A stretch of DNA of 64,000 bases from Hansschlegelia beijingensis (lineage in GTDB: Bacteria > Pseudomonadota > Alphaproteobacteria > Rhizobiales > Methylopilaceae): contig NZ_JACIDR010000005.1 in assembly GCF_014196425.1 (NCBI RefSeq), forward strand, positions 1 through 64,000, given 5' to 3'. The position numbers were made by a program, and so were the translations under genes. The notes below the pieces were generated by a model. That model had not been told where the DNA came from. It saw nothing but the letters and a program-made list of their open reading frames with translations, and ran no database searches. Positions 21,787 through 42,193 of this stretch are shown here, piece after piece. Position 1 is the stretch's first letter, and each line of letters begins with the position of its first letter.

Positions 21787-22619
21787 GGCGCGCTCCCCGC
21801 CGCGTCGACGAGGATGTCGTAGGCGTCGGCGATGCTCGGCCCGTAGCAGGTCCAGAGTCTTGGCGGGATCTTCACGACGCGGACCCGGTCGCCGAGCTTC
21901 GCGAGGATCGGGTGGCTCAGAACTTCGGTGGCAATCGCCGGCGGGCCGGCCCGGTCCCCGTCGACGATCAGCAGGTCGACGCCGGCCAGTATGATCGTCT
22001 CGAGCGGCAGCTGGCCGTAGGTGTCGAGCTTCAGCTCCGCCGCGACGTTCACGAGCCCGGCGCGCCGCATCAGCTCGTCGCTGAGCGAGCCAGGGCCGGC
22101 CGTAAAGCCGTTGGGGCGGAGAACCGCAGCCCGCAGCTTCGGCGTGCGGACAGGAGTGGGGCGCGACATCCGACGCTCGAGTTCGGCGATCATCGCATCG
22201 CCGCGGTCGCCATGACCGATCGCGTCGGCGACCCGGCGGATCTCGGCCTTCACCTGATCGAGCGTGCCGGGCGCGTCGGCGTCCACTACGGGCACGCCGA
22301 TGCGCCTGAGCACCGAAACGGCGGCTCGGGCGGTGTAGCGGCCGGCGAGCACAAGATCGGGCCTCGCGGCGACGACCTCCTCGGCGAAGCCGTGGTTCTG
22401 CGGCACGTCCATGACGCGGTCCGCCACGTTCGATCCGGCCGACGCCGCCGACAGCCAGCTCACCGATGCGACCTGCGCAGGATCGGCCAGCTGGACCAGC
22501 AGTTCGTCGGTGCAGAGGTTGATCGAGACGACCCGGGCGGGCGCGGCGGCCGCGGCCGATCCACACCAGAGGCCAAGGCACGCCGCCGCCAGGACGAACG
22601 CGAGAAAGCGCTCAGCCAT
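21783..22619 (-). CDS. btuF: Cobalamin ABC transporter, periplasmic binding protein
   Basis: 278 residues with signal peptide (AACLGLWCGSAAAAAPA). Two-lobe class III binding protein: ARVVSINLCTDELLVQLA, VPQNHGFAEEVVAARPDLVL and LRPNGFTAGPGSLSDELMRR. Overlaps the unknown gene upstream by 8 bases. The riboswitch-controlled context identifies it as BtuF-like; by sequence alone it could equally be a haem or siderophore binder. Confidence 0.82.
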   Translation of the reverse strand: MAERFLAFVLAAACLGLWCGSAAAAAPARVVSINLCTDELLVQLADPAQVASVSWLSAASAGSNVADRVMDVPQNHGFAEEVVAARPDLVLAGRYTARAAVSVLRRIGVPVVDADAPGTLDQVKAEIRRVADAIGHGDRGDAMIAELERRMSRPTPVRTPKLRAAVLRPNGFTAGPGSLSDELMRRAGLVNVAAELKLDTYGQLPLETIILAGVDLLIVDGDRAGPPAIATEVLSHPILAKLGDRVRVVKIPPRLWTCYGPSIADAYDILVDAAGSAP

Positions 22620-23208
22620 GGGCGAAGCCGCGCCCCTCTTCGTCGAGCGCCTCCGGGTCGCGGCCGAGCCAGCGCTTCGAGACCGCCCGCCACGTCGCCA
22701 GTCGCGAAAAGTCCGGCGTCGCTGAGAGGCTGTCGTCGTCCTCGATGAAGGGGTTGGCGAAGAAGATCGAGATCATGGGCTCGCCGGCCCCGTTCCACAT
22801 CTCGAAGCCCCACGTCGCCGGCTTGCCGTCGCGGCCATATCCGCGAAACAGCTGCGCCTTCGAGGGCTTCCGTCGCAGCGTCAGTTCTGGCGCGACCGGA
22901 AAGCGCTCCGAGCCACGGTTCTCGCCTATGCACAGATGGAAGTGGCCGCCATGGCCGAACATGACGGTGAGGTAGCCGTCCGTCAGGCCGATCTTTTGCG
23001 GAGCGCCGGGGCATCGCCACTCATAGGCCGCGCCCTCGATCAGCGGGCCGAACCGTATGCCCGCCCAGTGGTTCTCGAACACGTCGCGCAGGAACGCTTC
23101 GAGCGTGGCCTCATCGGCGCCGAGCGCCCAGATCTCACGCCTCACGGCGCCCTGGTCGTCGCGGATGATCTCGGTCGGCTCGCGCCGCGAAAAACTCTCT
23201 TCAGGCAT
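22612..23208 (-). CDS. Conserved protein of unknown function in B12 operon
   Basis: 198 residues, no leader or membrane segment. Begins MPEESFSRREPTEIIRDDQG. Notable are GHGGHFHLCIGENRG and WRCPGAPQKIGLTDGYLTVM, which could supply His/Cys ligands, and FRGYGRDGKPATWGFEMWNG. Located between btuB (with an intrinsic terminator in between) and btuF, with an 8-base overlap to btuF. A part in handling cobalamin or a cobalt corrinoid is inferred only from position. Confidence 0.65.
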   Translation of the reverse strand: MPEESFSRREPTEIIRDDQGAVRREIWALGADEATLEAFLRDVFENHWAGIRFGPLIEGAAYEWRCPGAPQKIGLTDGYLTVMFGHGGHFHLCIGENRGSERFPVAPELTLRRKPSKAQLFRGYGRDGKPATWGFEMWNGAGEPMISIFFANPFIEDDDSLSATPDFSRLATWRAVSKRWLGRDPEALDEEGRGFAHG

Positions 23209-26454: not shown

Positions 26455-27915
26455 CTAAAGCTCCGAAAGAACCCCCGGCGCGGGCTGCCCCGAAGGCTTC
26501 ACCCTGCGAGGCTTCGTGAGGATCACCGGATCGCTCGTGCGTTCGATCATCTCGGGATCCAGACCGGGAGCCTCCTCGAGCACTTCCCGGATCGATCTGC
26601 CGGAAGTGAGCACCTCCTTCGCCAGTTCCGCAGCCCGCTCGTAGCCGATGAAGGGCGTGAGCGCCGTCGCGACCGCCGTGCTGGCCTCGAGGTGCTGGCG
26701 GCAGCGCTCGCGGTTGGCCGTAAGGCCCGCGACGCATTTCTCGCGGAGGACGTCCGTCGCGTTCGTGAGCAGCGTGATCGAGTTCAAAAGGTTGTAGGCG
26801 ATCACCGGCTCCATGACGTTCAGCTGAAGCTGGCCGGCTTCGGCCGCAAGCGTCACGGCGAGGTCCGCGCCGATGACCTGGAAGGCCACCTGGTTCACGA
26901 CCTCCGGAGCGACGGGGTTCACCTTCCCCGGCATGATCGAGGAGCCAGGCTGAAGCGGCGGCAGGTTGATCTCCGCGAGGCCGCCGCGCGGGCCGCTTGA
27001 AAGAAGCCGAAGATCGTTCGCGATCTTGGAGAGCTTCACGGCCGTGCGCTTCAGCATGCCCGAGAAGAGCACGAACGCTCCCGTGTCCCAGCAGGCCTCG
27101 ATCAGGTCTGTCGCCGGCACCAGCTTGAGCCCCGTCAGCTTCGCGAGCTCCTCGACGGCGACGGCTTGATATTCAGGGGCGGCGTTGATGCCCGTCCCGA
27201 TGGCGGTCCCGCCGAGATTCACGTCGAGGAAGTGAACCGAAAGATCGTCGAGCCGCGCCACATCCTCACGCAAGGTGGAGGCGAACGCCTTGAACTCCTG
27301 CCCGAGCGTCATGGGCACGGCGTCCTGCAGCTGGGTCCGTCCAAGCTTGATGACGTCGGCGAACTCGTCGCCCCGCTGCTGAAACTCGTCTGCGAGCCGG
27401 GCCACCGCCCCTTTCAGCGCTCCGTAGCTGAACAGCACCGCAAGCCGGATGGCGGTCGGATAAACGTCGTTGGTCGACTGCGAAAGATTGACGTCGTTGT
27501 TCGGGTGGATGACCTCATAGCGGCCCCGGGCGAAACCCAGGAGCTCCAGCGCTCGGTTTGCGATCACCTCGTTCGCGTTCATGTTGGTGGAGGTGCCCGC
27601 GCCCCCCTGGAAAACGTCGATCGGAAACGCCTGGTCCAATCGACCGGCGATGACGTCGTCGCAGGCGGCGCAGATCGCTTCGGCCGTCGCCTTCGGAAGA
27701 TCGCCAAGGCGGGCGTTCGCGATCGCCGTGGCCTTTTTGACCTGCCCCAACGCGCGGATGAAAATGGGGAAATGGCCGATCGGCACGCCCGAGATCGGGA
27801 AGTTAGCGATCGCGCGAGCGGTCTGGGCTCCGTAATAGGCGTCGGCCGGCACTTCGATGGGGCCGAGCGGATCCCGCTCGACGCGTTTCGGGCTATCTTC
27901 AGCCTGGGTCATCAT
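26455..27915 (-). CDS. aspA: Aspartate ammonia-lyase
   Basis: 486 residues. Class II fumarase/aspartase family with all signatures: FQGGAGTSTNMNANEVIANR, HPNNDVNLSQSTNDVYPTAI, LGRTQLQDAVPMTLGQEF and the catalytic loop GSSIMPGKVNPVAPEVVNQV. The QDAVPMTLGQEF segment is that of true aspartases rather than fumarases. Converts aspartate to fumarate and ammonia. Start at ATGATG preceded by AAGGGGA. It is the last gene of the left arm of the GntR-centred cluster; with an aminotransferase in the right arm it could drain amino groups to ammonia (inference). A related substrate other than aspartate cannot be excluded. Confidence 0.85.
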   Translation of the reverse strand: MMTQAEDSPKRVERDPLGPIEVPADAYYGAQTARAIANFPISGVPIGHFPIFIRALGQVKKATAIANARLGDLPKATAEAICAACDDVIAGRLDQAFPIDVFQGGAGTSTNMNANEVIANRALELLGFARGRYEVIHPNNDVNLSQSTNDVYPTAIRLAVLFSYGALKGAVARLADEFQQRGDEFADVIKLGRTQLQDAVPMTLGQEFKAFASTLREDVARLDDLSVHFLDVNLGGTAIGTGINAAPEYQAVAVEELAKLTGLKLVPATDLIEACWDTGAFVLFSGMLKRTAVKLSKIANDLRLLSSGPRGGLAEINLPPLQPGSSIMPGKVNPVAPEVVNQVAFQVIGADLAVTLAAEAGQLQLNVMEPVIAYNLLNSITLLTNATDVLREKCVAGLTANRERCRQHLEASTAVATALTPFIGYERAAELAKEVLTSGRSIREVLEEAPGLDPEMIERTSDPVILTKPRRVKPSGQPAPGVLSEL

Positions 27916-28050
27916 CGGTTCCCCTTGCGGAGGCAGCGCCGAACGGACCGCCGGCCGACCGAGAGGCTGTGTCGCCATCGCGGAGCGCCTTCCGACGGCT
28001 CGACGGATGAGACCGGGCGGATCGGACCGACCGACCCGCCCGGATCAACC

Positions 28051-29481
28051 TCACTCGGTGGCTGAGCGTGAGGGCTGGAGCGCGGCGAGCGAGGCGGTTT
28101 CGCCACCCCAGATCCGCTTGCCAATCTCGCTGATGGTCATGACGACCAGGGGCACCAGCAGCGCCACATAGGCGTTATCGATCCCGAACGGGTTGCCCAG
28201 CAGGAACCAGCCGACGGTGACGACAAGCGACGTCAGGATGCTTATCAGCGCGCCGAGCTTCGTCCCGTAATACGGCGCGTAGAACACGAACAGCACGAGC
28301 ACCGAAAGGGACGCGCGCAGCGCCTTCCCCAGGAACGTCATCTTGAGGATGTCCGGCGTAAAGATCGCCAAAGCGATCGGCAGCAAGCCCACGACGACCG
28401 TCGCGATCTGAACGAACCGCAGAGATTGCTTCGACTCCTCGCCCCCAGCGACGAGGGGCAGGTAGAAGTCCTTGTAGAGAAGCGTCGCGGTAGAGACGCT
28501 GATCGCGGCGATCGTTCCGAACAGGGACGCAGCAAGACCGGCGGCGACGACGCCCGCCATCAGACTGTCCATGTGGCCGATCAGCTCCGAGAACGCGCTG
28601 ATCGACTTGACCTCCGGGAACATGACCTTCGCGCACATGCCGACCAGAGCGGCCATGATTCCGAAGGGCACCATGAGGATCGCGGTGTAGAAGCTCGCCG
28701 CCTGCGCCTTGCGTGCGTCACCGACCGTGTTGATGGCCTGGATCACATACTGCGTTGAGAATGTCGCGCCGACGCCGGCGATGAACCAGGCGAAAATCTG
28801 GCTCCAACCGACATTGGTCCACGAAAACATCTCCGGCGGCAGCTTGGCCTGCAGCTGATCGAACCCGCCGACGCTGGTGACGCCGAAGTAAAGCGCGAGG
28901 CCGACGCCGATGTATTTGACCACCGAGTGGATCACGTTCGTGTAAATGACGGAGGTCATGCCTCCCATGCACACGTAGAGAACCGCCACCGCGCCACAGA
29001 TGACGATGGCGAGATTCCGGTCCACGTGAAGAAGGCCGCTCAGGACCGTTCCTCCGCCGGCATAGAGCGACACCGCCACGATCTGAAGCGCGAAGATCAT
29101 GACGACTGACGTCGCGACCTTGGTCTTGTGTCCATAGACCTGCGCAAAAACGCCGGAGATGGTGTTCTGGCCGGAGTTCTTATACTTACCTGCCAGAAGA
29201 AAAGCGTAGAAAAGGAAGCCGACGCCGAGCGCAATGATGTTCCAGGACGCCGAGATGCCAGACTTGAAGGCCTCCTGCGTCGTGCCTACGCTTGCCGCCG
29301 TTCCGATGAACTCCGACATAAGCAGAAAGCCGACCAGGACCGCCGGAACGCTTGCGCCGATGCCGCTCGCCGTCGTGAACGAGTGCGCGCTGGTCACCGA
29401 CCGGCGCGCATATGAGCTGATGAGCCCTAAGGCCACCATGTAGCCGATGACGATCGCCACGGCCATGTAATTGGCTTGCAT
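28051..29481 (-). CDS. Sodium:solute symporter (SSS family)
   Basis: 476 residues, about 13 helices. Starts MQANYMAVAIVIGYMVALGL after GGGAGGGG. Typical motifs: SVTSAHSFTTASGIGASVPA, GGMTSVIYTNVIHSVVKYIG, and IAAISVSTATLLYKDFYLPL. Couples Na+ entry to uptake of an organic solute; substrate unknown, presumably the thiol, amino acid or carboxylate processed by the neighbours. The promoter region carries ACATGT palindromes shared with the regulator and right arm. Leader contains a strong hairpin. Confidence 0.85.
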   Translation of the reverse strand: MQANYMAVAIVIGYMVALGLISSYARRSVTSAHSFTTASGIGASVPAVLVGFLLMSEFIGTAASVGTTQEAFKSGISASWNIIALGVGFLFYAFLLAGKYKNSGQNTISGVFAQVYGHKTKVATSVVMIFALQIVAVSLYAGGGTVLSGLLHVDRNLAIVICGAVAVLYVCMGGMTSVIYTNVIHSVVKYIGVGLALYFGVTSVGGFDQLQAKLPPEMFSWTNVGWSQIFAWFIAGVGATFSTQYVIQAINTVGDARKAQAASFYTAILMVPFGIMAALVGMCAKVMFPEVKSISAFSELIGHMDSLMAGVVAAGLAASLFGTIAAISVSTATLLYKDFYLPLVAGGEESKQSLRFVQIATVVVGLLPIALAIFTPDILKMTFLGKALRASLSVLVLFVFYAPYYGTKLGALISILTSLVVTVGWFLLGNPFGIDNAYVALLVPLVVMTISEIGKRIWGGETASLAALQPSRSATE

Positions 29482-29520
29482 GTCCCCTCCCACCCCGCCG
29501 CCCGTTGGACGGCAAACACG

Positions 29521-29549
29521 CGCCGTCATTCGAGTGACGGCGTCTTTTT
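29521..29549 (+). terminator. Strong hairpin with T-run, in leader of minus-strand symporter
   Basis: CGCCGTCA-TTCGAG-TGACGGCG followed on the plus strand by TCTTTTT. As an intrinsic terminator it points to the plus strand, where no gene precedes it. On the minus strand it lies in the symporter 5' leader, between the operators and the start codon. Its role is unclear. Confidence 0.5.
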
Positions 29550-29554
29550 GGGAT

Positions 29555-29586
29555 GAACATGTTCAGATGCGCTTTAAAACATGTCA
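29555..29586. promoter_or_regulatory. GntR candidate operators at symporter promoter
   Basis: Perfect palindrome GAACATGTTC (29555-29564) and a second site AAACATGTCA (29577-29586), centres 22 bp apart (two helical turns). Same ACATGT core as at 30980-30989 and 31189-31200. Confidence 0.6.
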
Positions 29587-29725
29587 ATAGAATAAATCGG
29601 CTAGCTGACAATGGGCCGTGAGCAGTGACGCTCTGACAAGCGCAGCGACGTAATAAGGCGGAGGTGCGCACGGGGAGCAAGACGCTCCATGCGTGCATTC
29701 AGATGGCGTAGATCTTCTTGTTCAG

Positions 29726-30262
29726 TTACGACAACTCACGCGCGAGGTATTCGCGATCCACAGACGTCGCAACAGCCTTATGGTTGAAGCCGTAGATATG
29801 AACGGTCATGGCCATATCGGACCCGATGTTTCGGATGCGATGAATGTTGGGCCGTCGCGGCCTGAGCGCCGTGATCGCGCCGCGAGGCCGATCATGCGCC
29901 TTCGCCAGGCGAACGAATTCGGACCCCTCGTCCTCGGGTTCGAACCATTCTTCCAGCACCGTCCCGTCGACGACGCCCACCACGCAAGGGCAATGGTGGT
30001 CATGGATCGGCGTGCTCGCTCCTGCGCCCCAGGCGAACGCCCAGGCGCTGGTCATGCCGTCGCCGAACAGGAACCTCTTCTCATACTTCCCCGGCTCTGC
30101 GACCAGCCCGAGAGAGAGCACGTCGGTCGGGTCGGAAACGAAGACGTCGAGGAGCCGCTGAGCCTTATCGATGAAGAGTTCGTCCACCGAGATGGCGAGC
30201 GTCGACAACCGCGCAAGCCGCTCCCTCGTGGTCGTGTCCGTGGTGAGTGTCTTCACTTGCAT
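29726..30262 (-). CDS. Cupin thiol dioxygenase (cysteine / 3-mercaptopropionate dioxygenase type)
   Basis: 178 residues. Iron ligands H87 and H89 in PIHDHHCPCVVGVVDG and H141 in PNIHRIRN. The Ser-His-Tyr triad of this family is present as T153-H155-Y157 in MTVHIYGF, and R63 (KRFLFGDG) fits the substrate carboxylate ligand. It adds O2 to a thiol to give a sulfinate. Two Cys (C91, C93) stand directly after the HDH motif, where cysteine dioxygenases have one crosslinking Cys slightly further on and mercaptopropionate dioxygenases usually none, so substrate class is uncertain. Sits between the GntR gene (10 bp) and symporter on the same strand. Confidence 0.8.
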   Translation of the reverse strand: MQVKTLTTDTTTRERLARLSTLAISVDELFIDKAQRLLDVFVSDPTDVLSLGLVAEPGKYEKRFLFGDGMTSAWAFAWGAGASTPIHDHHCPCVVGVVDGTVLEEWFEPEDEGSEFVRLAKAHDRPRGAITALRPRRPNIHRIRNIGSDMAMTVHIYGFNHKAVATSVDREYLARELS

Positions 30263-30272
30263 AGCCTTTCGA

Positions 30273-30992
30273 TCAGCCGGCGCCGATCTTCACGTCGAGC
30301 AGGGACGCGCTGGATAGAAGGGCGTCGAGCACCATCGCTCGAGAGGCCCGAACCTGGTCGACGGTCACTTTCTCCGCCGTGTCCGCATCGCCGGCCGCGA
30401 GCGCGTCGATGAGCGCCTGATGCTCCGAGTGCATCTCGTTGCCTCGATCACGGAGCGACAGACCGAAATGAAACATGCGCTCCAGCTCGACGAGCAGCTG
30501 GCTCAACACGGCGACCAAGCGCTCGTTGCCGGTGGCCGCTGCGACGCACAGATGGAATTCGCTGTTGCGCTGAAGGAAAACCGCTTCGCTGTCCCGGTCG
30601 CCGGGCTGGTAGTCGGCCAGACAAAGTCGGTCGAGCCGATGGAGATCGGCGGCGTCGACCCGCCCCGCCGCGAGGCGAACACACGCCACCTCGATGATCT
30701 CACGCATCTGGAAGAGATCGTTCAGATCCCTCAGCGTGATCGGCTTCACCTTGTAGCCTTGGCGGCGAACCGGCTGCAGCAGGCCCAGCAGAGATAGCCG
30801 ATCGACCGCCGCCCGCGCGCCCGCGCGGCCCACGTTGAAATGGTTCGCGAGCTCGATCTCCGTCACGATCGCGCCGGGCATGATCTCGCAGCGGACGATC
30901 GCCTTGCGGATTTCCTCGAACGCAACGTCGCTTTGCCGGCGGGCGGACCCGGGGTCACGTGGCGCGCGCTCGATCTTTAGAACATGTCCCAT
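30273..30992 (-). CDS. GntR-family regulator, FCD subfamily
   Basis: 239 residues: winged helix (VAFEEIRKAIVRCEIMPGAI, then ELANHFNVGRAGARAAVDRL with LSLLGLLQPVRRQGY), followed by an all-helical FCD ligand domain (LNDLFQMREIIEVACVRLAA, NSEFHLCVAAATGNERLVAV, MHSEHQALIDAL). Such regulators bind small organic acids and are often autorepressors. An ACATGT palindrome covers codons 2-4, and GGGGGG serves as ribosome site. Head of the left arm and divergent from the MDR gene; the likely controller of both arms. Confidence 0.9.
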   Translation of the reverse strand: MGHVLKIERAPRDPGSARRQSDVAFEEIRKAIVRCEIMPGAIVTEIELANHFNVGRAGARAAVDRLSLLGLLQPVRRQGYKVKPITLRDLNDLFQMREIIEVACVRLAAGRVDAADLHRLDRLCLADYQPGDRDSEAVFLQRNSEFHLCVAAATGNERLVAVLSQLLVELERMFHFGLSLRDRGNEMHSEHQALIDALAAGDADTAEKVTVDQVRASRAMVLDALLSSASLLDVKIGAG

Positions 30993-31011
30993 AGACCCCC
31001 CATAAACATAT
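30980..31011. promoter_or_regulatory. GntR candidate operators at its own start codon
   Basis: GAACATGTCC (30980-30989) lies within codons 2-4 of the regulator gene; a half-like AAACATAT follows at 31004-31011 upstream of the start. Fits autorepression. Confidence 0.5.
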
Positions 31012-31188
31012 CACGAAAGAGTTGCAAGGCACTCCGACGCGCGACGGCCGCGATTATACCGCGCTGTCGCCCTGCGTGAAAGCGTTGGAAAATGAGCACA
31101 ACAGGGGCGCATCAGCCGACTTCGGAGGTGTTTGACCAGTTCGTTGGAGCACTAGACAGGCGAATTTTTTCGTTTAGGAAGGCGGCTA

Positions 31189-31200
31189 TAAACATGTTTA
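31189..31200. promoter_or_regulatory. GntR candidate operator TAAACATGTTTA before MDR gene
   Basis: Perfect 12-bp palindrome, 13 bp before the ATG at 31214, directly followed by the ribosome site AGGGGGG. The strongest of the ACATGT-centred sites in the cluster. Confidence 0.65.
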
Positions 31201-31213
31201 AGGGGGGTTTCAG

Positions 31214-32233
31214 ATGTCTTCGACCACGATGCGCGCGCTGGTTCTGGCGGAGCACGGATCCCTGGAGAACCTCCGGGTGGTCGAGGACCACCCCAAGCCG
31301 ACCGCCAGCGAAGGTCACGTCGTCATCCGCGTGCGGGCGTCTTCCTTCAATTATCATGACGTGTTCACCGTCAGGGGCATGCCGGGGATCAAGGTTCCTC
31401 TGCCGGTCGTCATCGGCCTCGATATGGCCGGCGAGATCGATGAAGTGGGAACTGGCGTCAGCGGGTGGTCGAAAGGCGATCGGGTGCTCGTCAACCCGCT
31501 GAACAAGCGCCGGGGCCTGCTGGGTGAGATGATGGACGGCGGCATGGCGGAGTACTGCCTGGTCGCCGCCGAGCAGCTCATTCGCATGCCCAATGGCGTT
31601 TCCTTCGAGGACGCCGCATCGCTGCCGGTGGCTTACGGCACGGCCCACCGAATGCTTGTCACCCACAACACCGTGAAGGCGGGGGACAGGGTTCTGGTTC
31701 TCGGCGCCTCCGGAGGCGTTGGCACGGGCTGCGTGCTGCTGGCGAAGCTCGCCGGCGCCGAGGTGATCGCCTGCGCCGGCGGCGAGGACAAGATGCAGCG
31801 CCTCCGTGACCTCGGGGCGGATCACGTCATCAACTACAAGGAAGTCGACTTCTCGAAATGGGCCATCGAGAAGTTCGGCAAGCCCCAGCGCAGAACCTAC
31901 GAGGGCGGCGTCGACGTCGTCGTGAACTTCACCGGCGGCGACACCTGGGCGCCTTCGCTCAAGTGCCTGAAGCGCGGCGGCAAGCTGCTCGTCTGCGGGG
32001 CCACGGCCGGGCACGACCCGAAGGAAGACCTTCGTTACGTGTGGAGCTTCGAGCTTCAGATCATCGGATCGAACAGCTTCTACGACGACAACCTCGCCGA
32101 TCTCATGCAGCTGATCGCGGAGGGGAAAATCAAGCCGGTCGTGGACAAGATCCTGCCGCTCGATCAGGCCATCGAAGGACTGAGGCTCATCGAACAGCGC
32201 GAGGTCATGGGCAAAGTCGTCATCACGCCCTGA
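31214..32233 (+). CDS. MDR-family NAD(P)H oxidoreductase (quinone reductase/alcohol dehydrogenase-like)
   Basis: 339 residues. GroES-like domain with ASSFNYHDVFTVRGMPGIKV and VIGLDMAGEIDEVGTGVSGW, then a Rossmann domain with LVLGASGGVGTGCVLLAKLA. The structural zinc Cys cluster of alcohol dehydrogenases is absent (the loop reads VLVNPLNKRRGLLGEMMDGG), and the catalytic Cys position is replaced, so it is a zinc-free or single-zinc enoyl or quinone reductase type. Probable role: reduce an unsaturated acyl-CoA or aldehyde in the pathway of this cluster (inference). First gene of the right arm. Confidence 0.8.
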   Translation: MSSTTMRALVLAEHGSLENLRVVEDHPKPTASEGHVVIRVRASSFNYHDVFTVRGMPGIKVPLPVVIGLDMAGEIDEVGTGVSGWSKGDRVLVNPLNKRRGLLGEMMDGGMAEYCLVAAEQLIRMPNGVSFEDAASLPVAYGTAHRMLVTHNTVKAGDRVLVLGASGGVGTGCVLLAKLAGAEVIACAGGEDKMQRLRDLGADHVINYKEVDFSKWAIEKFGKPQRRTYEGGVDVVVNFTGGDTWAPSLKCLKRGGKLLVCGATAGHDPKEDLRYVWSFELQIIGSNSFYDDNLADLMQLIAEGKIKPVVDKILPLDQAIEGLRLIEQREVMGKVVITP

Positions 32234-32281
32234 TCTGCCCCGACGACCGTTCTTCTATAACAAAAAAAAATGGGGAGCATA

Positions 32282-32701
32282 ATGTCTGAGGTCGAACTGA
32301 CGCCGGCGCAGGTCGAGGAGATGATCGCTCGCGGGCCCTTCAACAAGTGGCTTGGTCTTCGCATCCAGAAGGTCGACAAGGAAGGCATCGAGCTAATCGC
32401 GACCTGGCGCGAAGAGTGGGTCGTCAATCCGCAGCGGCGTTACACCCATGGCGGCATTCTTGCCGCGCTGATCGACTTGACCGCGGACTGGTCGCTTGTG
32501 GCGCACACCGGTCGCGGCGTGCCGACCATCGACCTGCGGGTGGACTATCACCGCGCCGCCATGCCCGGCGATCTGATCGCGCGCGGGAAGATCGTGAAGC
32601 TTGGCAGCCAGATCTCGGTGGCCGAAGCGTCCGTGTTCGATATGGAAGAAAAGCTGCTGGCCAGCGGCCGAGGCGTCTATCTCACAACGCCTCCGGCTTA
32701 G
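32282..32701 (+). CDS. PaaI-family hotdog thioesterase
   Basis: 139 residues from the ATG preceded by GGGGAGC. Hotdog fold with RYTHGGILAALIDLTADWSL (HGG motif with acidic Asp on the following helix) and TIDLRVDYHRAAMPGDLIAR. Hydrolyses acyl-CoA thioesters, probably clearing dead-end CoA esters made by the ligase two genes on. 48 bp after the MDR gene. Confidence 0.85.
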   Translation: MSEVELTPAQVEEMIARGPFNKWLGLRIQKVDKEGIELIATWREEWVVNPQRRYTHGGILAALIDLTADWSLVAHTGRGVPTIDLRVDYHRAAMPGDLIARGKIVKLGSQISVAEASVFDMEEKLLASGRGVYLTTPPA

Positions 32702-33174
32702 CGGCGACCGATAATAATCGCCGCCAAGCAGCGCGCAGCGGCCCGGGAGCCTCGACAAAGCGGGGTTCGGCCGGCTCGACTTCTGGTCGATCGGTCGGAA
32801 CCGTTGAAGCCAAGGATCCGTGCGCGTTCTCGCGGTCTTCGCCGACGGGTGTTCGCCATCCGTCGGCGTCGATCCAGCAACTCCGAAGCGCGAACTGCTC
32901 GACCCGCCCGTCTTCATGAACGTCCTGGCTGTCATGGCGCCAGATCCTCGCTCCGAAGCGTCGATCTCGCCGACCGCGAAGCTTGAACTCCACTCCGTGG
33001 GCGCGTCCGCCGGATCGCCGCTCCCGGAGGAGCCGGGTGGGTGAGCCTTTCGACGCTCTTCAACGCAGCCTCGGCGCCGGACGCCCCGTCCGGCCCCGAA
33101 ACCGGGCCGCCCATTCTCCTTCGGGTCAGGCCGTCGCGTGACATCCGATTCAGCGAGACTTGGTGAACCCATCA
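32702..33174. other. 473-bp gap inside the right arm
   Basis: Open frames exist on both strands (for example 32820-33044 +), but none has a convincing ribosome site or recognisable family. It may hold a decayed gene or a separate promoter for the ligase. Confidence 0.4.
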
Positions 33175-34668
33175 ATGAACGCCCCATGCAATCTTGGTTC
33201 GATCATCAGCAACGCACCCGAACCCGCGAAAACCGCCATCATCGATTTCGACGGACAAAACTCACGCGAGGTCAGCTATGGCGCTCTCGACGCGCTCGCT
33301 GACGGAGTGGCCAGGGCCCTCGTCGCGAGAGGTTTCCGCAAGGGACAGCGCGTCGCGATCCTGGCGGCCAACAGTTCCGATCACCTGGCGGTGCATTTCG
33401 GCGCAATGCGCGCCGGACTGGTCTCTGTTCCCGTCAACCATCGCCTTCCGGCCGACACCGTCCACCGGATCCTCGAAGACAGCGGGGCTGTCATCGTCTT
33501 CTGCGACGCAGAGCGGCGAAGCGCTGTCCCTCCCGGCGCCGCGACGGTCGTCTTCGACCAGGACGGCGGGCTCGAAAGCTTCATCGACCGCGGCCCCTTC
33601 ACGGCCGTCGAAACGGCGCCGGACGATCCCTCCACGATGCTCTACACCTCGGGATCGACCGGACGCCCGAAGGGCGTCGTGCTGAGCCACGCCGGCCAGC
33701 GTTGGGTCGTCGACATGCGGCTTGCGATGCAACCGGTCGAGAACGAGCGGTTCCTGATCGCCGCGCCGCTCTATCACCTGAACGCGCTCGCCCTGGCGCA
33801 TCTGATCTTCTCCGGCCGCAGCGAGATGGTGCTGATGCCGCAGTTCAAGGTCCGGTCCTACATCGCGGCGATCGAGCGCTTCCGCTGCACCTGGCTGACT
33901 TCGGTCCCGCCGATGATCGCCATGATGCTGGAGGACCGGGAAGCCGTCGCAAAAGCGGACTTCTCCTCCGTGCGCAACCTCCGGATGGGTTCAGCGCCGG
34001 TCAGCCCGAGCCTGCACCTGAGAATTTGCGAGCAGTTCCCGCAAGCGAAGATCGTCAACGCCTACGGGACGACCGAAGGCAGTCCGGTCGTCTTCGCTCC
34101 CCATCCCGGCGGGAAGCCGACGCCGCCGGGCTCCCTCGGCTGCCGACATCCAGCCGTCGAGCTGCGCCTGATCGACGAAACGGGCGCTGCAAGCGACAGC
34201 GGCGTCCTTCAGATGCGTTCGCCCGGCCTGATGAGCGGATACCACAACCGGCCGGACCTCTCCCCGTTCACGACCGATGGTTTCTACGTCACGGGTGATC
34301 TGTTCCGAAGGGACGCCGACGGATTCTACTACTTCCTTGGCCGTTCCGACGACATGTTCGTGAGCGGCGGCGAGAACATCTTCCCCGGAGAGGTCGAGCG
34401 GACGCTCGAGATGCATCCGGACGTGGTCCAATCCTGCGTCGTTCCGATCGACGATCCGATTAAGGGCCAGAAGCCGGTCGCATTCGTCCGCCTCAATAAC
34501 GGTTCGACCATCGACGCCGACGCCTTGAAGGCTTTCGCGCTGGAGCGGGGACCCGCTTACCAGCATCCGCGAGCCATCTGGTTCCTCGAGGACTTCCCGC
34601 TCGCATCAACGAACAAGATCGATCGAGCCGCGCTGATGAAGCGCGCGCGCGAACTCACACAACCCTGA
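33175..34668 (+). CDS. AMP-forming acyl-CoA synthetase/ligase
   Basis: 497 residues. ANL superfamily motifs in order: P-loop STMLYTSGSTGRPKGVVLSH, adenine motif NAYGTTEGSP, hinge GDLFRRDADGFYYFLGRSDD, SGGENIFPGEVE and the catalytic Lys in ASTNKIDRAAL. Activates a carboxylate to acyl-CoA through an acyl-AMP. Substrate not readable. In this context an alkyl sulfinate, mercapto acid or short-chain acid is possible. Start chosen at the first ATG; a TTG 15 bp upstream is an alternative. Confidence 0.87.
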   Translation: MNAPCNLGSIISNAPEPAKTAIIDFDGQNSREVSYGALDALADGVARALVARGFRKGQRVAILAANSSDHLAVHFGAMRAGLVSVPVNHRLPADTVHRILEDSGAVIVFCDAERRSAVPPGAATVVFDQDGGLESFIDRGPFTAVETAPDDPSTMLYTSGSTGRPKGVVLSHAGQRWVVDMRLAMQPVENERFLIAAPLYHLNALALAHLIFSGRSEMVLMPQFKVRSYIAAIERFRCTWLTSVPPMIAMMLEDREAVAKADFSSVRNLRMGSAPVSPSLHLRICEQFPQAKIVNAYGTTEGSPVVFAPHPGGKPTPPGSLGCRHPAVELRLIDETGAASDSGVLQMRSPGLMSGYHNRPDLSPFTTDGFYVTGDLFRRDADGFYYFLGRSDDMFVSGGENIFPGEVERTLEMHPDVVQSCVVPIDDPIKGQKPVAFVRLNNGSTIDADALKAFALERGPAYQHPRAIWFLEDFPLASTNKIDRAALMKRARELTQP

Positions 34669-34693
34669 CTGACGGTCACCAGGATCTGTACAC

Positions 34694-35965
34694 ATGAATC
34701 GGTCTACAGCGTTTCGCGACGTGCCTTTCATGGGCGTCATATGGGTCGTGGACGAGGCGATGAAGCTCGGCTTCCGCAATCTCGACCCGGACTGGTGTAA
34801 CCTCGGCCAGGGCATGCCTGAGATCGGACCGCTGAAGGGCGCGCCGGACCGGCTGAACGCGATCAACGTTGCGGTCGGGGATCTCGCCTATGGTCCCGTG
34901 GGAGGGATCGATGCGCTCCGGGAGCGGGTCGCCGACCACTACAACCGGCTCTTCCGTCAGGGCAAGGCGAGCCAGTACACGAAGGCGAACGTCGGCATCG
35001 CAGCCGGCGGCCGGCTGATGCTGAGCCGCTTCGTGGCGGCGCTCGGCGAACACCGGCTGGGCCACGTCGTCCCGGACTACACCGCCTACGAAGACCTTCT
35101 CGACTACCACCGTCATCGGATCACCCCGGTCGCGATCGAGACGAAGCCGGACACCAACTTCCATATACCGGCCGATCGCTTCGATGCGATCGTCCGGGAC
35201 GAGAAGCTGAACTCGTTCCTCATCTCGAACCCCTGTAATCCCACGGGGAACCTGATCGAGGGGGACGAACTGGCGAAGTATGTCCAGGTCGCTCGGGAGC
35301 GTGATTGCTGGCTCTGCCTTGACGAGTTCTATTCCCACTTCATCGTGGATGAGGATGGGAATCCGGGCGCTGGTCCAGTCTCGGGGGCGGCGTATGTCGA
35401 CGACGTCAATCGCGATCCGGTGGTCATCATCGACGGCCTGACCAAGAACTACCGCTATCCCGGTCTGCGCGTCGGGTGGATCGTCGGGCCGACCGATGTC
35501 ATCGAGCAGGTGACGAGGACCGCGAGCGCCATCGACGGGGGGCCGCCTGTCCCGATGCAGCGCGCCGCTTACGACCTGCTCGAGCCGAGAAGGGCTGACC
35601 AGGAGACGAACGCGGTCCGCGCCGCTTTCGCCGACAAGCGACGCCTGATGGTCAACGAGCTGACCAAGATGGGCGTCAACGTTCAGAACAGCGGGCGCGG
35701 CACCTTCTATCTGTGGGCGGACCTCAAGGATCTTCCGCCTCCCCTATCGAACTCTGACGAGTTTTTCAGGAAGGCGCTCACGCGCAAGGTCATGACCGTC
35801 CCGGGGCGCTTCTTCGATGTGAATCCGGGCCGGGTTCGTGCCGCCGAGATGATCGGCGAGACGTGGACTCGATTCTCGTTCGGGCCGCCGATCGACAACG
35901 TTCGTCTTGGTCTCGACCGCCTCCGGTCGATCTGCGACCAGGCTCAATTGGCCAAAGCCAGCTGA
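34694..35965 (+). CDS. PLP-dependent aminotransferase, class I/II
   Basis: 423 residues, fold type I. Visible: NLGQGMPEIGP at the N-terminus, YGPVGGIDALRERVADHYNR, NPCNPTGN, LDEFYSHF (Asp-x-x-Tyr pair for PLP) and the Schiff-base Lys in IDGLTKNYRYPGLRVGWIVG, with the C-terminal carboxylate-binding Arg in ETWTRFSFGPP. Transfers an amino group between an amino acid and a 2-oxo acid. With the thiol dioxygenase it could transaminate cysteine sulfinate, and with oxaloacetate as acceptor it would feed the aspartase (inference). 25 bp after the ligase. Confidence 0.87.
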   Translation: MNRSTAFRDVPFMGVIWVVDEAMKLGFRNLDPDWCNLGQGMPEIGPLKGAPDRLNAINVAVGDLAYGPVGGIDALRERVADHYNRLFRQGKASQYTKANVGIAAGGRLMLSRFVAALGEHRLGHVVPDYTAYEDLLDYHRHRITPVAIETKPDTNFHIPADRFDAIVRDEKLNSFLISNPCNPTGNLIEGDELAKYVQVARERDCWLCLDEFYSHFIVDEDGNPGAGPVSGAAYVDDVNRDPVVIIDGLTKNYRYPGLRVGWIVGPTDVIEQVTRTASAIDGGPPVPMQRAAYDLLEPRRADQETNAVRAAFADKRRLMVNELTKMGVNVQNSGRGTFYLWADLKDLPPPLSNSDEFFRKALTRKVMTVPGRFFDVNPGRVRAAEMIGETWTRFSFGPPIDNVRLGLDRLRSICDQAQLAKAS

Positions 35966-36518: not shown

Positions 36519-39461
36519 ATGCTGATGTCTTACGCTTTTTCACTGGTGGTCTTGCTCGCGCTCCCGTTCGCCGGGAGTTGCGTGGCCGCGCTGCTGCGTG
36601 AAAACGCCCGCAACGCCGAGGCCTGGCTCGCCGGCGCCGTCGCGCTCGCGGGCCTCATCCTGGTCGCCTCCTGCTATCCCCAGATCGTCGACGGCGGGGT
36701 GATCCGCTACACCGCCGAGTGGGCGCCGGAGCTCGGGCTCCGGTTCAGCATCCGGATGGACGGCTTCGCCTGGCTGATGGCGACGCTCGTCACGGGCATC
36801 GGCTTCCTGGTCGTGCTCTACGCCCGCTACTACCTGTCGCCCGCCGATCCGGTTCCGCGATTCTTCTCCTTCCTGCTCGCCTTCATGGGCGCGATGCTCG
36901 GCGTCGTGCTGTCGGGGAACCTGATCCAGCTCGTCTTCTTCTGGGAGCTGACGAGCCTCTTTTCGTTCCTGCTGATCGGCTACTGGTACCAGACGGCGCC
37001 GGCCCGCGACGGCGCGCGCATGGCCCTCACCATCACCGCGACCGGCGGGCTCTGCCTGTTCGCGGGCGTGCTCATCATCGGCCACATCGTCGGGAGCTAC
37101 GAGCTCGACCGGGTGCTGGCCTCCGGGGCGCTGATCCGCGCGCACCCGCTCTACGTGCCGGCGCTGGCGCTCGTGCTGCTCGGCGCGCTGACCAAGAGCG
37201 CGCAGTTCCCGTTCCATTTCTGGCTGCCGAGCGCGATGGCGGCGCCGACGCCAGTCTCGGCCTACCTGCACTCCGCGACCATGGTGAAGGCGGGCGTTTT
37301 CCTGCTGATCCGGCTGTGGCCGGCGCTCGGCGGAACCCAGGAATGGCTCTGGCTGGTCGGCGGCGCGGGCCTCGTGACCTTCATCTTCGGCGCCTTCTGC
37401 GCCTGCTTCCAGCAGGACCTAAAGGGTCTGCTCGCCTACTCCACCATCAGCCATCTCGGCCTGATCACGCTGCTCACCGGACTCGACTCCCCGCTCGGTC
37501 AGGTCGCCGCGATCTTCCACCTGATGAACCACGCGACCTTCAAGGCGTCGCTGTTCATGGCGGCGGGGATCATCGATCACGAGGCCGGCACCCGCGATAT
37601 CCGGCGACTGAGCGGGCTCTGGCGGTTCATGCCGGTCACCGCGACGCTCGCCATGGTGGCGGCCGCGGCGATGGCGGGCGTGCCGCTGCTGAACGGGTTC
37701 CTCTCCAAGGAGATGTTCTTCGCGGAGACGATCGAGATCCACGACAACTCGCTGATCGACCAGGCGCTGCCCTACATCGTGACGCTCGCCAGCATGTTCA
37801 CGGTGGCCTACTCGATCCGCTTCATCCGCGACGTGTTCTTCGGCCCGCCGCCGCAGGACCTGCCACGCACCCCGCACGAGCCGCCCTTCCTGATGCGGCT
37901 GCCGGCGGGTCTTCTGGTGCTCGCCTGCCTGGTCGTCGGGGTCGCGCCGACGATGACCGTGGGGCCGGCGCTCAACGCCGCCGTCCGCGCCGCGCTCGAT
38001 GCGCCGCCGCCGCCCTACAGCCTCGCGGTCTGGCACGGCTTCACCTTCGAGTTCTTCATGAGTTTCGTGGCGCTCGCGGGCGGGGCGGCGATCTATGTCC
38101 TGCTCCGGCCCTATCTCCTTCGCGGCCTCGACGGGCCGCCCCTGTTGCGGGAGCTGAGCGGGCGCCGGATGTTCGACCGCGTGCTCGTCGCGATATCCTG
38201 GCGTCTCGCGCGCTGGCTCGAGGGCGTGTTCGGCACGCGCAGGCTTCAGCCGCAGCTGCAATGGCTGACGATCGTGGCCGTGACCGCGGCCGTCTCGGCC
38301 CTATTCGCCGTTGGCCTGTCGGTCGGAAACGGCTCTTCGAGCGGGCCGGACCTCCCCTTCGCCCTGCTCTGGGTCGTCGGCCTCGCCTGCGCGGTCGGGG
38401 CCGCGAGCCAGGCCAAGTACCACCGCGTCACGGCGCTGATCCTGCTCGGCGGCGCGGGGCTCGTGACCTGCGTGACGTTCGTCTGGCTTTCCGCGCCCGA
38501 CCTCGCCCTCACGCAGCTGGTGGTGGAGACGGTGACCACGGTGCTGCTGCTGCTCGGCGTCCGCTGGCTGCCGAAGCGGTTCGAGCCCGCCGAGCTCAAC
38601 GGCGAGGCCGGCCGCGTGATCCGCTGGTACCGCGTCCGCGACCTGCTGATCTCGCTTGCGGTCGGGGGCGGGCTCGCCGCGCTCGCCTACGCCGCGATGA
38701 CGCGGCCGGCGCCGGACAGCATCTCCCGCTTCTTCGTTGAGAACGCCTACCTGAAGGGCGGCGGAACCAACATCGTGAACGTCATCCTGGTGGACTTCCG
38801 CGGCTTCGACACGCTGGGCGAGATCACGGTGCTGGGCGTCGTGGCGCTCACCGTGTTCGCCCTGCTGCGCCGCTTCCGCCCGGCGCCGGACAGCATCCCG
38901 GTGCCCGAGCAGCAGCGCACGCAGAACCTGTTCGACGAGAGCCTCCCCGAACGGGAAAAGGGCGCGATCGTGCGCGACGCGATGGCGGTTCCGGCCCTCA
39001 TCATGCGCCTGCTGTTCCCGGTGGTGGGGACGATGGCCGTGTTCCTGCTGCTGCGCGGGCACGATCTGCCCGGCGGCGGCTTCGTGGCGGGCATCACGAT
39101 GGCGGTCGCCTTCCTGCTGCAATACATGGCGCTCGGCACGGCGCAGGCGGAGGAGCGCCTGCGCGTGCTGCCCGTGCGCTGGATCGGCGTCGGGCTGCTG
39201 CTGGCGGCCGGGACCGGAGCGGCCTCGTGGCTGTTCGGCCGGCCGTTCCTGACCTCCTATTTCGGCTACGCCGACCTGCCGCTGATCGGAAAGGTCCCGA
39301 CGGCGAGCGCTTTCGTGTTCGACCTCGGCGTGTTCTCGCTGGTGGTCGGCGCGACCGTGCTGATGCTGATCGCGCTCGCCCACCAGTCGGTGCGCAGCCA
39401 TCGCATCGCCGCGGAGCAGGAGGCCGAGACGCCCGCAACCGCCGCCGGTGACGCCCGATGA
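36519..39461 (+). CDS. mrpA: Mrp Na+/H+ antiporter subunit A, fused with MrpB
   Basis: 980 residues, about 20 helices. Residues 1-500 are the NuoL-like core (ARYYLSPADPVPRFFSFLLA, LTKSAQFPFHFWLPSAMAAP, TPVSAYLHSATMVKAGVFLL). A long C-terminal extension with the MrpA-specific domain (DLALTQLVVETVTTVLLLLG) follows, then from about 825 the MnhB domain (RLLFPVVGTMAVFLLLRGHD, PGGGFVAGITMAVAFLLQYM). Fusion of A and B occurs in rhizobial PhaAB. It exchanges Na+ or K+ for H+ as part of a multi-subunit complex. First gene of a seamless operon. Confidence 0.92.
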   Translation: MLMSYAFSLVVLLALPFAGSCVAALLRENARNAEAWLAGAVALAGLILVASCYPQIVDGGVIRYTAEWAPELGLRFSIRMDGFAWLMATLVTGIGFLVVLYARYYLSPADPVPRFFSFLLAFMGAMLGVVLSGNLIQLVFFWELTSLFSFLLIGYWYQTAPARDGARMALTITATGGLCLFAGVLIIGHIVGSYELDRVLASGALIRAHPLYVPALALVLLGALTKSAQFPFHFWLPSAMAAPTPVSAYLHSATMVKAGVFLLIRLWPALGGTQEWLWLVGGAGLVTFIFGAFCACFQQDLKGLLAYSTISHLGLITLLTGLDSPLGQVAAIFHLMNHATFKASLFMAAGIIDHEAGTRDIRRLSGLWRFMPVTATLAMVAAAAMAGVPLLNGFLSKEMFFAETIEIHDNSLIDQALPYIVTLASMFTVAYSIRFIRDVFFGPPPQDLPRTPHEPPFLMRLPAGLLVLACLVVGVAPTMTVGPALNAAVRAALDAPPPPYSLAVWHGFTFEFFMSFVALAGGAAIYVLLRPYLLRGLDGPPLLRELSGRRMFDRVLVAISWRLARWLEGVFGTRRLQPQLQWLTIVAVTAAVSALFAVGLSVGNGSSSGPDLPFALLWVVGLACAVGAASQAKYHRVTALILLGGAGLVTCVTFVWLSAPDLALTQLVVETVTTVLLLLGVRWLPKRFEPAELNGEAGRVIRWYRVRDLLISLAVGGGLAALAYAAMTRPAPDSISRFFVENAYLKGGGTNIVNVILVDFRGFDTLGEITVLGVVALTVFALLRRFRPAPDSIPVPEQQRTQNLFDESLPEREKGAIVRDAMAVPALIMRLLFPVVGTMAVFLLLRGHDLPGGGFVAGITMAVAFLLQYMALGTAQAEERLRVLPVRWIGVGLLLAAGTGAASWLFGRPFLTSYFGYADLPLIGKVPTASAFVFDLGVFSLVVGATVLMLIALAHQSVRSHRIAAEQEAETPATAAGDAR

Positions 39462-39805
39462 CGGAGATCGTGCTCGCCATCGGCATCGGGACGTTCGCGG
39501 CGTCGGGCATGTGGCTGCTGCTGCGGCCGCGCACCTTCCAGGTGATCATCGGCCTGTCGCTGCTGTCCTACGCCGTTAACCTGTTCATCGTCGCGATGGG
39601 CCGCCTCCACACCGACATGCCGCCCGTGCTGGAGAAGGCGGGCCCGGGCGATCCGGCGCTCTACGCCGATCCGCTGCCGCAGGCGCTGGTGCTCACCGCG
39701 ATCGTCATCAGCTTCGCGACCACCGCCTTGCTGCTCGTGGTGCTGCTCGCCGCGCGCGGCCTGACCGGCACCGACCACGTCGACGGCCGCGAGACGCCGC
39801 CATGA
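39458..39805 (+). CDS. mrpC: Mrp antiporter subunit C
   Basis: 115 residues, NuoK-like, three helices (IGIGTFAASGMWLLLRPRTF, QVIIGLSLLSYAVNLFIVAM, DPLPQALVLTAIVISFATTA). Overlaps mrpA by ATGA. Normal length for the subunit. Confidence 0.92.
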   Translation: MTEIVLAIGIGTFAASGMWLLLRPRTFQVIIGLSLLSYAVNLFIVAMGRLHTDMPPVLEKAGPGDPALYADPLPQALVLTAIVISFATTALLLVVLLAARGLTGTDHVDGRETPP

Positions 39806-41427: not shown

Positions 41428-41915
41428 CGCGCCTCCTGCCCTACCCCTTGCTCTCGGCGGCGCTGCTGCTGCTGTGGCTCCTCGCCAACCAGACGGTGAG
41501 GCCGGGCCAGATCCTGCTCGGCGCCGCTGTCGCGCTCGTCGGCGGCTGGGCGCTGACGGCGCTGCAGCCGCCGAAGGCGCGGCTGCGCCGCCCCGCCGCA
41601 GCCCTGCGTCTCGGCGGGCGGGTGCTGGTCGACATCATCCGCTCCAACATCGCGGTCGGCCGCATCGTGCTCGGCCTGAACGGGCGGCGGGAGAGACGGT
41701 CGGGCTTCATCGACATCCCGCTCGAGCTGCGCGACCAGAAAGGGCTCGCAGCCCTCGCCTGCATCATCACCTCGACGCCCGGCACCCTGTGGGTCAATTT
41801 CGATCCGGCGCGTGGGACGCTGATGATCCACGTCCTCGACCTGATCGACGAGGAGGAGTGGGCGCGCACCATCAAGGGCCGGTACGAAACGCTGCTGCTG
41901 GAGATCTTCCAATGA
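41424..41915 (+). CDS. mrpE: Mrp antiporter subunit E
   Basis: 163 residues. Two to three N-terminal helices (LLWLLANQTVRPGQILLGAA) and a soluble domain with ACIITSTPGTLWVNFDPARG and MIHVLDLIDEEEWARTIKGR YE, typical of MnhE. ATGA overlap with mrpD. Confidence 0.92.
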   Translation: MTRLLPYPLLSAALLLLWLLANQTVRPGQILLGAAVALVGGWALTALQPPKARLRRPAAALRLGGRVLVDIIRSNIAVGRIVLGLNGRRERRSGFIDIPLELRDQKGLAALACIITSTPGTLWVNFDPARGTLMIHVLDLIDEEEWARTIKGRYETLLLEIFQ

Positions 41916-42193
41916 GCGCGGCGATCCTGTCCTGGTCGCTTTGGGCGGCGCAGATCATGCTCGCGCTCGGCATGAGTTGCGCCGTGTTCCGCATGCTGCG
42001 CGGCCCGCGCGCGCAGGACCGCGTTCTGGGGCTCGACACGCTCTACATCAACGCGATGCTGCTGCTGCTGACCGTCGGCATGGCGTCCGGCCGCACGCTT
42101 TATTTCGAGGCGGCCCTGATCATCGCGCTGCTCGGCTTCGTCGGCACGGTCGCGCTCGCCAAGTTCCTGCTCCGCGGCGAGGTGATCGAATGA
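41912..42193 (+). CDS. mrpF: Mrp antiporter subunit F
   Basis: 93 residues, three helices, with RMLRGPRAQDRVLGLDTLYI as family signature and ALIIALLGFVGTVALAKFL at the end. ATGA overlap with mrpE. Confidence 0.92.
   Translation: MSAAILSWSLWAAQIMLALGMSCAVFRMLRGPRAQDRVLGLDTLYINAMLLLLTVGMASGRTLYFEAALIIALLGFVGTVALAKFLLRGEVIE

Follow-up and report, generated by a model that had tools for sequence, protein, structure and literature searches.

Gene content and shared operator-like sites

The gene cluster considered here occupies positions 26455-35965 of contig NZ_JACIDR010000005.1 of Hansschlegelia beijingensis, within a window (the whole stretch of DNA analysed) of 64,000 nt. It is built of two arms, with the genes for a GntR regulator, a dioxygenase, a symporter and an aspartase on the minus strand and those for an MDR reductase, a thioesterase, a ligase and an aminotransferase on the plus strand. 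This two-armed set had been listed in a first-pass annotation, and all eight genes were located and confirmed as members of the named families with Pfam (Lyase_1/FumaraseC_C, SSF, CDO_I, GntR+FCD, ADH_N/ADH_zinc_N, 4HBT, AMP-binding, and Aminotran_1_2). The probable starts of the aspartase and symporter genes were corrected to 27915 and about 29481, respectively, instead of the ends of their open reading frames (ORFs). The features are as follows.

26455..27915, minus strand: aspartate ammonia-lyase (aspartase); 703 bits to PRK12273, pocket residues
28051..29481, minus strand: sodium:solute symporter (SSF), presumed substrate importer; Pfam SSF, 65% relative in two Afipia operons
29554..29565: operator-like palindrome TGAACATGTTCA, upstream of the symporter
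29576..29587: operator-like palindrome AAAACATGTCAA, upstream of the symporter
29726..30262, minus strand: thiol (cysteine-type) dioxygenase; CDO_I, predicted fold, three His, Thr-His-Tyr
30273..30992, minus strand: GntR/FCD regulator; Pfam GntR and FCD, 79% identity to Afipia regulators
30981..31012: two looser operator-like sites, AACATGTC and AACATATC, at the GntR start; degenerate pattern matching at 30981 and 31005
31189..31200: operator-like palindrome TAAACATGTTTA, upstream of the MDR gene
31214..32233, plus strand: MDR (zinc-binding dehydrogenase family) oxidoreductase; Pfam, Afipia identity 88% and 86%
32285..32701, plus strand: hotdog (PaaI-like) thioesterase; TIGR00369 87 bits against a cut-off of 36.6
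32736..32984, plus strand: decayed Glyoxalase_3 (VOC) gene remnant with an in-frame stop; tblastn
33175..34668 (ORF from 33160), plus strand: AMP-forming acyl-coenzyme A (CoA) ligase; AMP-binding 251 bits, Afipia identity 66-69%
34694..35965, plus strand: class I pyridoxal phosphate (PLP) aminotransferase; Aminotran_1_2, 25 bases 3' of the ligase

The two arms had also been said to be linked by shared palindromes, a claim that held. Scanning of the 64-kb window with WWAACATGTT, allowing at most one mismatch, gave eight matches against 0.69 expected, a number reached in none of 100 shuffles; six of the eight were three palindromes counted on both strands, and the other two lay elsewhere in the window. 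Sites were found upstream of both the symporter and the MDR gene, and the same two promoters carried them in the closest relatives, two Afipia loci (L045 and L046). Within 260 bases upstream of the Afipia MDR genes there were four sites in L045 and two in L046, equalled by 0 and 3 of 1000 Markov sequences, while the region of the symporter open-frame start held three sites and one, respectively, counts that carry no chance figure. Among the ten loci in which the MDR upstream region was tested, the window included (locus L142, which is listed without a start, was skipped), sites were present in the window, L045 and L046 only. None was found upstream of MDR in L051, L047, L038, L099, L119, L101, or L087, in which the GntR protein was 34-43% identical or no GntR was found. 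A genome-wide scan with TRAACATRTYA, in which the pattern end was misset, gave one site and is uninformative on regulon size. Since sites stand at both promoters in Afipia as in the window, the symporter and the acyl arm look like a single regulon in two lineages, as judged from these predicted operators. The cluster is real and jointly regulated, its families being ordinary and their combination unusual.

A conserved core and the origin of the window copy

To define the wider distribution, an alignment of the MDR protein was searched against named genomes, yielding at least 597 stretches, of which 550 were confirmed and the best 80 kept. Partner genes in these 80 loci were called with hidden Markov models (HMMs) built for the analysis; as loci were kept for the similarity of their MDR protein and many of them lie on short contigs, the partner counts are not unbiased rates. 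A thioesterase was present in 74/80 and a ligase in 73/80 loci, so that the conserved core consists of MDR, thioesterase, and ligase, i.e., the right arm of the cluster without its aminotransferase. Further partners were UbiD (50 loci), VOC (43), TctC-type binding proteins (34), GntR (22), gamma-glutamyltransferase-family proteins (21), UbiX (20), SsuA (18), TauE (16), the thiol dioxygenase (16), 2-hydroxyacid dehydrogenase (11), Cds1 (10), RidA (7), a class V PLP enzyme (4), the symporter (3), a Rieske protein (3), and a persulfide-dioxygenase domain (2). The block had first been seen in a plasmid collection, with remoter cores on Sodalis, Tistrella, and Paenibacillus plasmids, and most locus titles name Alpha- or Betaproteobacteria. 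In the window, MDR, thioesterase, and ligase lie together on one strand and are accompanied by GntR, and the VOC gene, itself not universal among the loci, survives only as a remnant. The cluster thus belongs to a widespread conserved operon that is apparently undescribed: no description of the core operon or of the exact gene set was found in the open-licence literature, outside which most subscription journals lie, which agrees with the first-pass statement that no operon with this exact set was known.

The presence of UbiD in 50 of the loci hints at an aromatic or heteroaromatic acid as substrate. The one UbiD member tested gave 6h6v as its best PDB match, which we take to be a furan-dicarboxylate decarboxylase. 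Together with anthranilate-dioxygenase-like and class II aldolase neighbours, UbiD argues for a ring acid in many lineages; the single UbiD gene of the window genome lies outside the cluster. Other neighbours were seen in smaller sets of loci. A gene pair resembling the two sulfopyruvate decarboxylase subunits lies near the core in L052, L059, L103, and L109, the beta-like protein of L052 scoring 131 against a cut-off of 221. A cytochrome c gene stands between thioesterase and ligase at L086:2317-3279 (Pfam) and at L109:11462-12388 (same sequence cluster). In L064, L070, L073, L087, L101, and L115, one or two TauE/SafE-type exporters and two or three MFS carriers, their families taken from one member each, occupy the strand opposite the operon.

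The closest known relative of the window cluster is the Afipia form of the proteobacterial GntR-MDR-PaaI-VOC-ligase operon, with which it shares GntR (79% identity), MDR (86-88%), thioesterase (76-80%), ligase (66-69%), symporter (65%), and the type of site. The Afipia operons differ in having an intact VOC gene, a gamma-glutamyltransferase-family gene, a class V PLP enzyme, and a persulfide-dioxygenase domain, where the window has a dioxygenase, an aminotransferase, and an aspartase and only the VOC remnant. In a tree of MDR, ligase, and thioesterase comprising 79 sequences, the window included, the window copy grouped with the two Afipia loci with a support of 1.0. The same genome carries a second core operon, on contig C3 around 317068 (L142), in the order GntR-ABC-SsuA-MDR-thioesterase-VOC-ligase-Cds1-gamma-glutamyltransferase-family; this copy is genus-typical and groups with the genus, again with a support of 1.0.

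Among the 18 genomes of the family, MDR (E<=1e-70) was found in 11, with two matches only in the window's own genome. An aspartase of at least 62% identity was found in two of them, the genome itself and G747, the other listed lyases, of 42-44%, being probably fumarases. Besides the window's own genome, the adjacent antiporter gene occurs in G744, which belongs to another genus (two of 18), and the DUF2062 gene in five genomes from other genera (six of 18). This antiporter gene is the first of a Mrp-type multi-subunit Na+/H+ antiporter operon, named from similar plasmid records, that lies downstream of the cluster at 36519-42588 of the window; at E<=1e-100, none of the 12 further genomes in the genus matched it. 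The simplest reading of these distributions is that the window copy was gained within the genus.

The 458-base gap between thioesterase and ligase contains the VOC remnant. By tblastn, this matched the Candidimonas VOC protein (L051) with 34% identity over 85 amino acids and the Afipia VOC proteins with 35-37% over 62-78 amino acids. These best matches, to the VOC proteins of L051, L046, and L045, scored 35.4 and 33.9 bits, and none of 200 shuffled gaps scored above 27.3; the VOC family HMM did not detect the remnant in this gap (1.8 bits), and a search of the gap in the plasmid collection gave no match. Searches for remnants of the gamma-glutamyltransferase-family, Cds1, class V, and Blh genes in the hotdog-ligase and post-aminotransferase gaps gave at best 21.9 and 20.4 bits, which lies within the range of unrelated gaps.

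Cysteine-type enzymes at the core and in the window

A sulfur or cysteine theme had been proposed for the cluster, and it was strengthened by the partners of the core as well as by the window dioxygenase itself. A dioxygenase, Cds1, or a class V PLP enzyme was found near the core in 30 of the 80 loci, and no two of them stood together in any of those 30 (P = 0.019 for all three under random draw, relatedness uncorrected). Distances were measured between open frames and not between called starts and stops: in all but one of the 16 loci with a dioxygenase, its frame was separated from a core frame by 0-164 bases, the exception lying 4.2 kb away; the Cds1 frame lay at 0-45 bases in all ten, the class V frame 85-4378 bases in four loci, and the gamma-glutamyltransferase-family frame 0-9163 bases in 21. 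When the window dioxygenase was used as a tblastn query (E<=1e-5), matches were obtained in 15 of the 80 loci (1.26 Mb in total). As the same query gave only 47 places, its own included, in 385 class genomes (E<=1e-3), chance dioxygenase neighbours should be far below one across the 80 loci. On the core tree the partner label changes 17 times, compared with a mean of 31 and a lowest value of 24 in 500 shuffles; the partners therefore appear to follow descent in part, yet to have been replaced repeatedly. Cds1 is described as an H2S-forming enzyme in PMC8389258, and the Cds1 label is applied here below the model cut-off, with three proteins scoring 523-574 against 600. The three partner modules are, or resemble, cysteine-consuming enzymes.

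Among 17 dioxygenase-like proteins of core loci, 16 have Arg at the R60, Cys at the C93, and Tyr at the Y157 position, which, according to their titles, are positions varied in PDB entries of the rat enzyme. Arg60 and Tyr157 are outer-sphere contacts of bound cysteine according to PMC8050391. The exception, which lacks all three residues, is the second dioxygenase-like copy in L056. The latter (L056:16062-16625) adjoins RidA, 2-hydroxyacid dehydrogenase, and Rieske genes.

For the window protein, an AlphaFold model was obtained from 17 sequences with a mean pLDDT of 86.2. Thiol dioxygenases, comprising 3MDO, CDO, ADO, and Msdo (8vni) structures, took ranks 1-45 among the 50 Foldseek matches listed, rank 46 being another cupin. 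Query-normalised TM scores were 0.72 to Azotobacter 3-mercaptopropionate dioxygenase and 0.68 to human cysteine dioxygenase. The protein has the cupin-type thiol-dioxygenase fold and CDO_I membership, and the three His of the ligand triad (H87, H89, and H141) are conserved. It also has the Cys93-Tyr157 pair of L-cysteine dioxygenase, which might form a crosslink, its Cys93 aligning with the G95 position of the crosslinked G95C enzyme, and Thr-His-Tyr instead of Ser-His-Tyr. At the position of Arg168 of 3-mercaptopropionate dioxygenase, which according to PMC8050391 binds the 3-mercaptopropionate carboxylate, it has Thr166. The closest relatives seen, at 38-39%, are a protein of Methylobacterium symbioticum (L099), encoded 4.2 kb away from a core, and one from a Microvirga plasmid, whose gene adjoins an Lrp regulator; on a second Microvirga plasmid, a 33% relative stands next to Lrp and a putative sulfate exporter, and a search of genome contigs with the window dioxygenase alone found no relative. 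From these similarities, the window dioxygenase seems to have been recruited separately from the core-adjacent group.

The lyase is an aspartase according to its subfamily model and active-site residues. In NCBIfam it scored over the PRK12273 subfamily cut-off (703 vs. 510 bits) and under the aspA equivalog cut-off (629 vs. 681). The alpha-carboxylate pocket residues T187, M321, K324, and N326 of AspB, as named in PMC11744663, are kept in the alignment, and the H188 position is occupied by Gln, as in the E. coli aspartase. The one other close lyase paralogue in the genome, 43% identical, would be the fumarase. The family offers a parallel for a catabolic operon that includes an aspartase: in G747 the 62% relative lies among aminotransferase, aldehyde dehydrogenase, and agmatinase-like genes, as read from their translations, without the core. 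Ergothioneine breakdown was also considered and was dropped, the model and pocket residues identifying the lyase as an aspartase and the papers listed on the subject showing no tie to the cluster.

The aminotransferase is of class I/II by family and is a putative cysteine-sulfinate transaminase. No relative besides itself was found in 385 class genomes (E<=1e-40) or in 398 phylum genomes (E<=1e-35), and the one plasmid relative was 29% identical. Aspartase and aminotransferase were searched for in 97 loci, comprising the 80 named loci, 7 on plasmids, and 10 of the family. In a Methylibium metagenome-assembled genome (L049:490-695), two collinear aminotransferase pieces were found in different frames (49% over 45 residues and 70% over 23 residues, E 3e-10), directly upstream of dioxygenase and core; for the first 337 aminotransferase residues the upstream DNA gave no match. 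What is left is either a remnant or the product of faulty assembly, and L049 is the sole other place among the 97 loci where this aminotransferase type, dioxygenase, and core meet. Co-occurrence of the dioxygenase, ligase, aminotransferase, and aspartase families in other genomes, named as a check in the first-pass annotation, gave a mixed picture: dioxygenase and ligase do occur together elsewhere, whereas aspartase accompanies the core in 0/97 loci and the aminotransferase only as the broken copy in L049.

A tentative cysteine-releasing route and its alternatives

Gene content, operator-like sites, conservation of the core, the dioxygenase signature, and the recurring cysteine-type partners are the observations from which the following chemical steps are proposed. 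Our preferred reading, offered tentatively and with a confidence just short of even, is that the cluster represents a second copy of the ligase/MDR/thioesterase operon, acquired laterally and remodelled, and that it frees cysteine, which is disposed of via dioxygenase, aminotransferase, and aspartase. The substrate would release the GntR/FCD repressor, and the Na+ symporter would take up a carboxylic acid bearing a cysteine-type S-linked group. The ligase would form the CoA thioester of the imported acid, the MDR protein may perform a redox step, and the thioesterase would liberate the organic acid, L-cysteine being released along the way. The dioxygenase would convert L-cysteine to cysteine sulfinate, and the aminotransferase would use the latter as amino donor for oxaloacetate, with aspartate and sulfinylpyruvate as products. 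In the sulfinate route, sulfinylpyruvate decays to pyruvate and sulfite. The aspartase would turn aspartate into fumarate and ammonia; aminotransferase and aspartase would in this way close the amino-group cycle of the cysteine-sulfinate route. The window shares with that route the fold and most signature residues of cysteine dioxygenase and differs in being set within an acyl-CoA operon with its own importer and in having Lys-Arg at Arg60. Release of the thiol after CoA activation is suggested by analogy with glutathione removal in isoprene breakdown, where, according to PMC10057887, a CoA thioester of the glutathione adduct is predicted before glutathione is removed (IsoG and IsoJ). In both cases CoA activation would precede thiol loss, the predicted CoA-transferase and glutathione transferase of that pathway differing from the AMP ligase and MDR protein of the window.

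The L049 locus, with an aminotransferase remnant, dioxygenase, and core, adds weight to this cysteine-releasing reading, against which several observations must be set. No role in the mechanism is assigned to UbiD, present in 50 loci; aspartase had no match (E<=1e-3) in any of the 97 loci, and an intact aminotransferase was found in none of them. What ties these two enzymes to the core is their position, the shared sites, and the remnant in L049, a contig with a low coverage of 2.1 (from its title), so that its broken frames may be assembly errors. For the dioxygenase-Cds1 pair alone, the lack of overlap is weak (P = 0.09), a figure uncorrected for the relatedness that exists among the loci. 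Partly through short contigs, 50/80 loci showed none of the three partners. The gamma-glutamyltransferase-family proteins score below the cut-off (330 and 299 vs. 358), and the class V protein falls far short of every cysteine desulfurase cut-off (151 vs. 475). The window dioxygenase has Lys62-Arg63 at the R60 position where 16 relatives have Arg, its best PDB sequence and fold matches are 3-mercaptopropionate dioxygenases, and it falls outside the core-adjacent group, with 38% identity to L099 and 21-27% to the others.

Those best matches are also what would be expected were the cluster a mercapto-acid pathway, in which the dioxygenase would oxidise an imported 3-mercaptopropionate-like acid to the sulfinate, the ligase would make a sulfinoacyl-CoA, and sulfite would be lost; acyl-CoA chemistry would suit ligase, thioesterase, and MDR alike. 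Such thiol dioxygenase and CoA chemistry is shared with the 3,3'-dithiodipropionate/3-mercaptopropionate pathway of Advenella and Variovorax. However, the window protein lacks Arg168, its relatives carrying Arg60 and Cys93 instead, and the eight genes of the cluster, to which this comparison was confined, include no acyl-CoA-dehydrogenase-type desulfinase of the kind known from Advenella (PMC5373536). The extra MDR, thioesterase, aminotransferase, and aspartase genes further set the window apart, the latter two being left unexplained, and we regard this pathway as improbable. The first-pass annotation had combined a 3-mercaptopropionate branch with cysteine-sulfinate logic; the former was not supported, and the latter is more likely, because 16 of the 17 dioxygenase-like proteins of core loci carry Arg60, Cys93, and Tyr157. 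Mercaptosuccinate dioxygenase (Msdo) loci resemble the window in the dioxygenase fold and differ in LysR control and in the rhodanese and cystathionine beta-lyase genes that stand beside Msdo in Advenella, as described in PMC5373536.

A pathway for a sulfur-free aromatic or heteroaromatic acid is unlikely, though less so. In it, a ring acid would be processed by ligase, MDR, thioesterase, VOC, and UbiD, and the dioxygenase and other cysteine-type enzymes would meet side needs, for instance the turnover of sulfide or glutathione. The frequency of UbiD and its 6h6v match, the anthranilate-dioxygenase-like Rieske protein in 3/80 loci, and the class II aldolase in L060 all speak for it, as do relatives of the symporter that stand beside muconate and maleylacetate genes in Sphingobium (50%) and beside UbiX, UbiD, and xanthine-dehydrogenase-type genes in Azospirillum (60%). 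Side needs, however, would not predict that dioxygenase and Cds1 frames adjoin the core or that dioxygenase residues are conserved, and the window cluster itself has no UbiD and only a VOC remnant. It could also be argued that an aspartate/cysteine arm and an acyl-acid arm are two unrelated pathways brought under one regulator by recent rearrangement, given that aspartase is not with the core in the 97 loci and that the G747 aspartase lies in an operon reading as amine catabolism. Yet the regulator and the sites are common to symporter and core in Afipia too, and the aminotransferase lies 25 bases 3' of the ligase. The aminotransferase remnant adjoining dioxygenase and core in L049 lowers the odds of this separation further, and we consider it very unlikely.

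A wider form of the cysteine-releasing reading, possible but on the unlikely side, is that the core represents an undescribed proteobacterial CoA pathway that imports glutathione- or cysteine-linked acids, splits them via ligase, MDR, and thioesterase, and passes the L-cysteine so freed to interchangeable modules for its disposal (Cds1; a class V PLP enzyme paired with persulfide dioxygenase; dioxygenase). The window variant would then be complete, taking cysteine all the way to pyruvate, sulfite, fumarate, and ammonia through dioxygenase, aminotransferase, and aspartase. If the core does split thiol conjugates, this would explain how such bacteria recycle plant or pollutant acids bound to glutathione or cysteine. 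The swapped disposal modules offer a direct route to testing which thiol is released, and Arg60-type bacterial dioxygenases with the Cys93-Tyr157 pair become available for enzymology. A gene module with a consistent sulfur signature was thus reached from the window. Elsewhere in the window, at 22612-23208, a DUF7676 protein adjoins an apparent TonB-dependent receptor and an ABC uptake system, as read from their translations.

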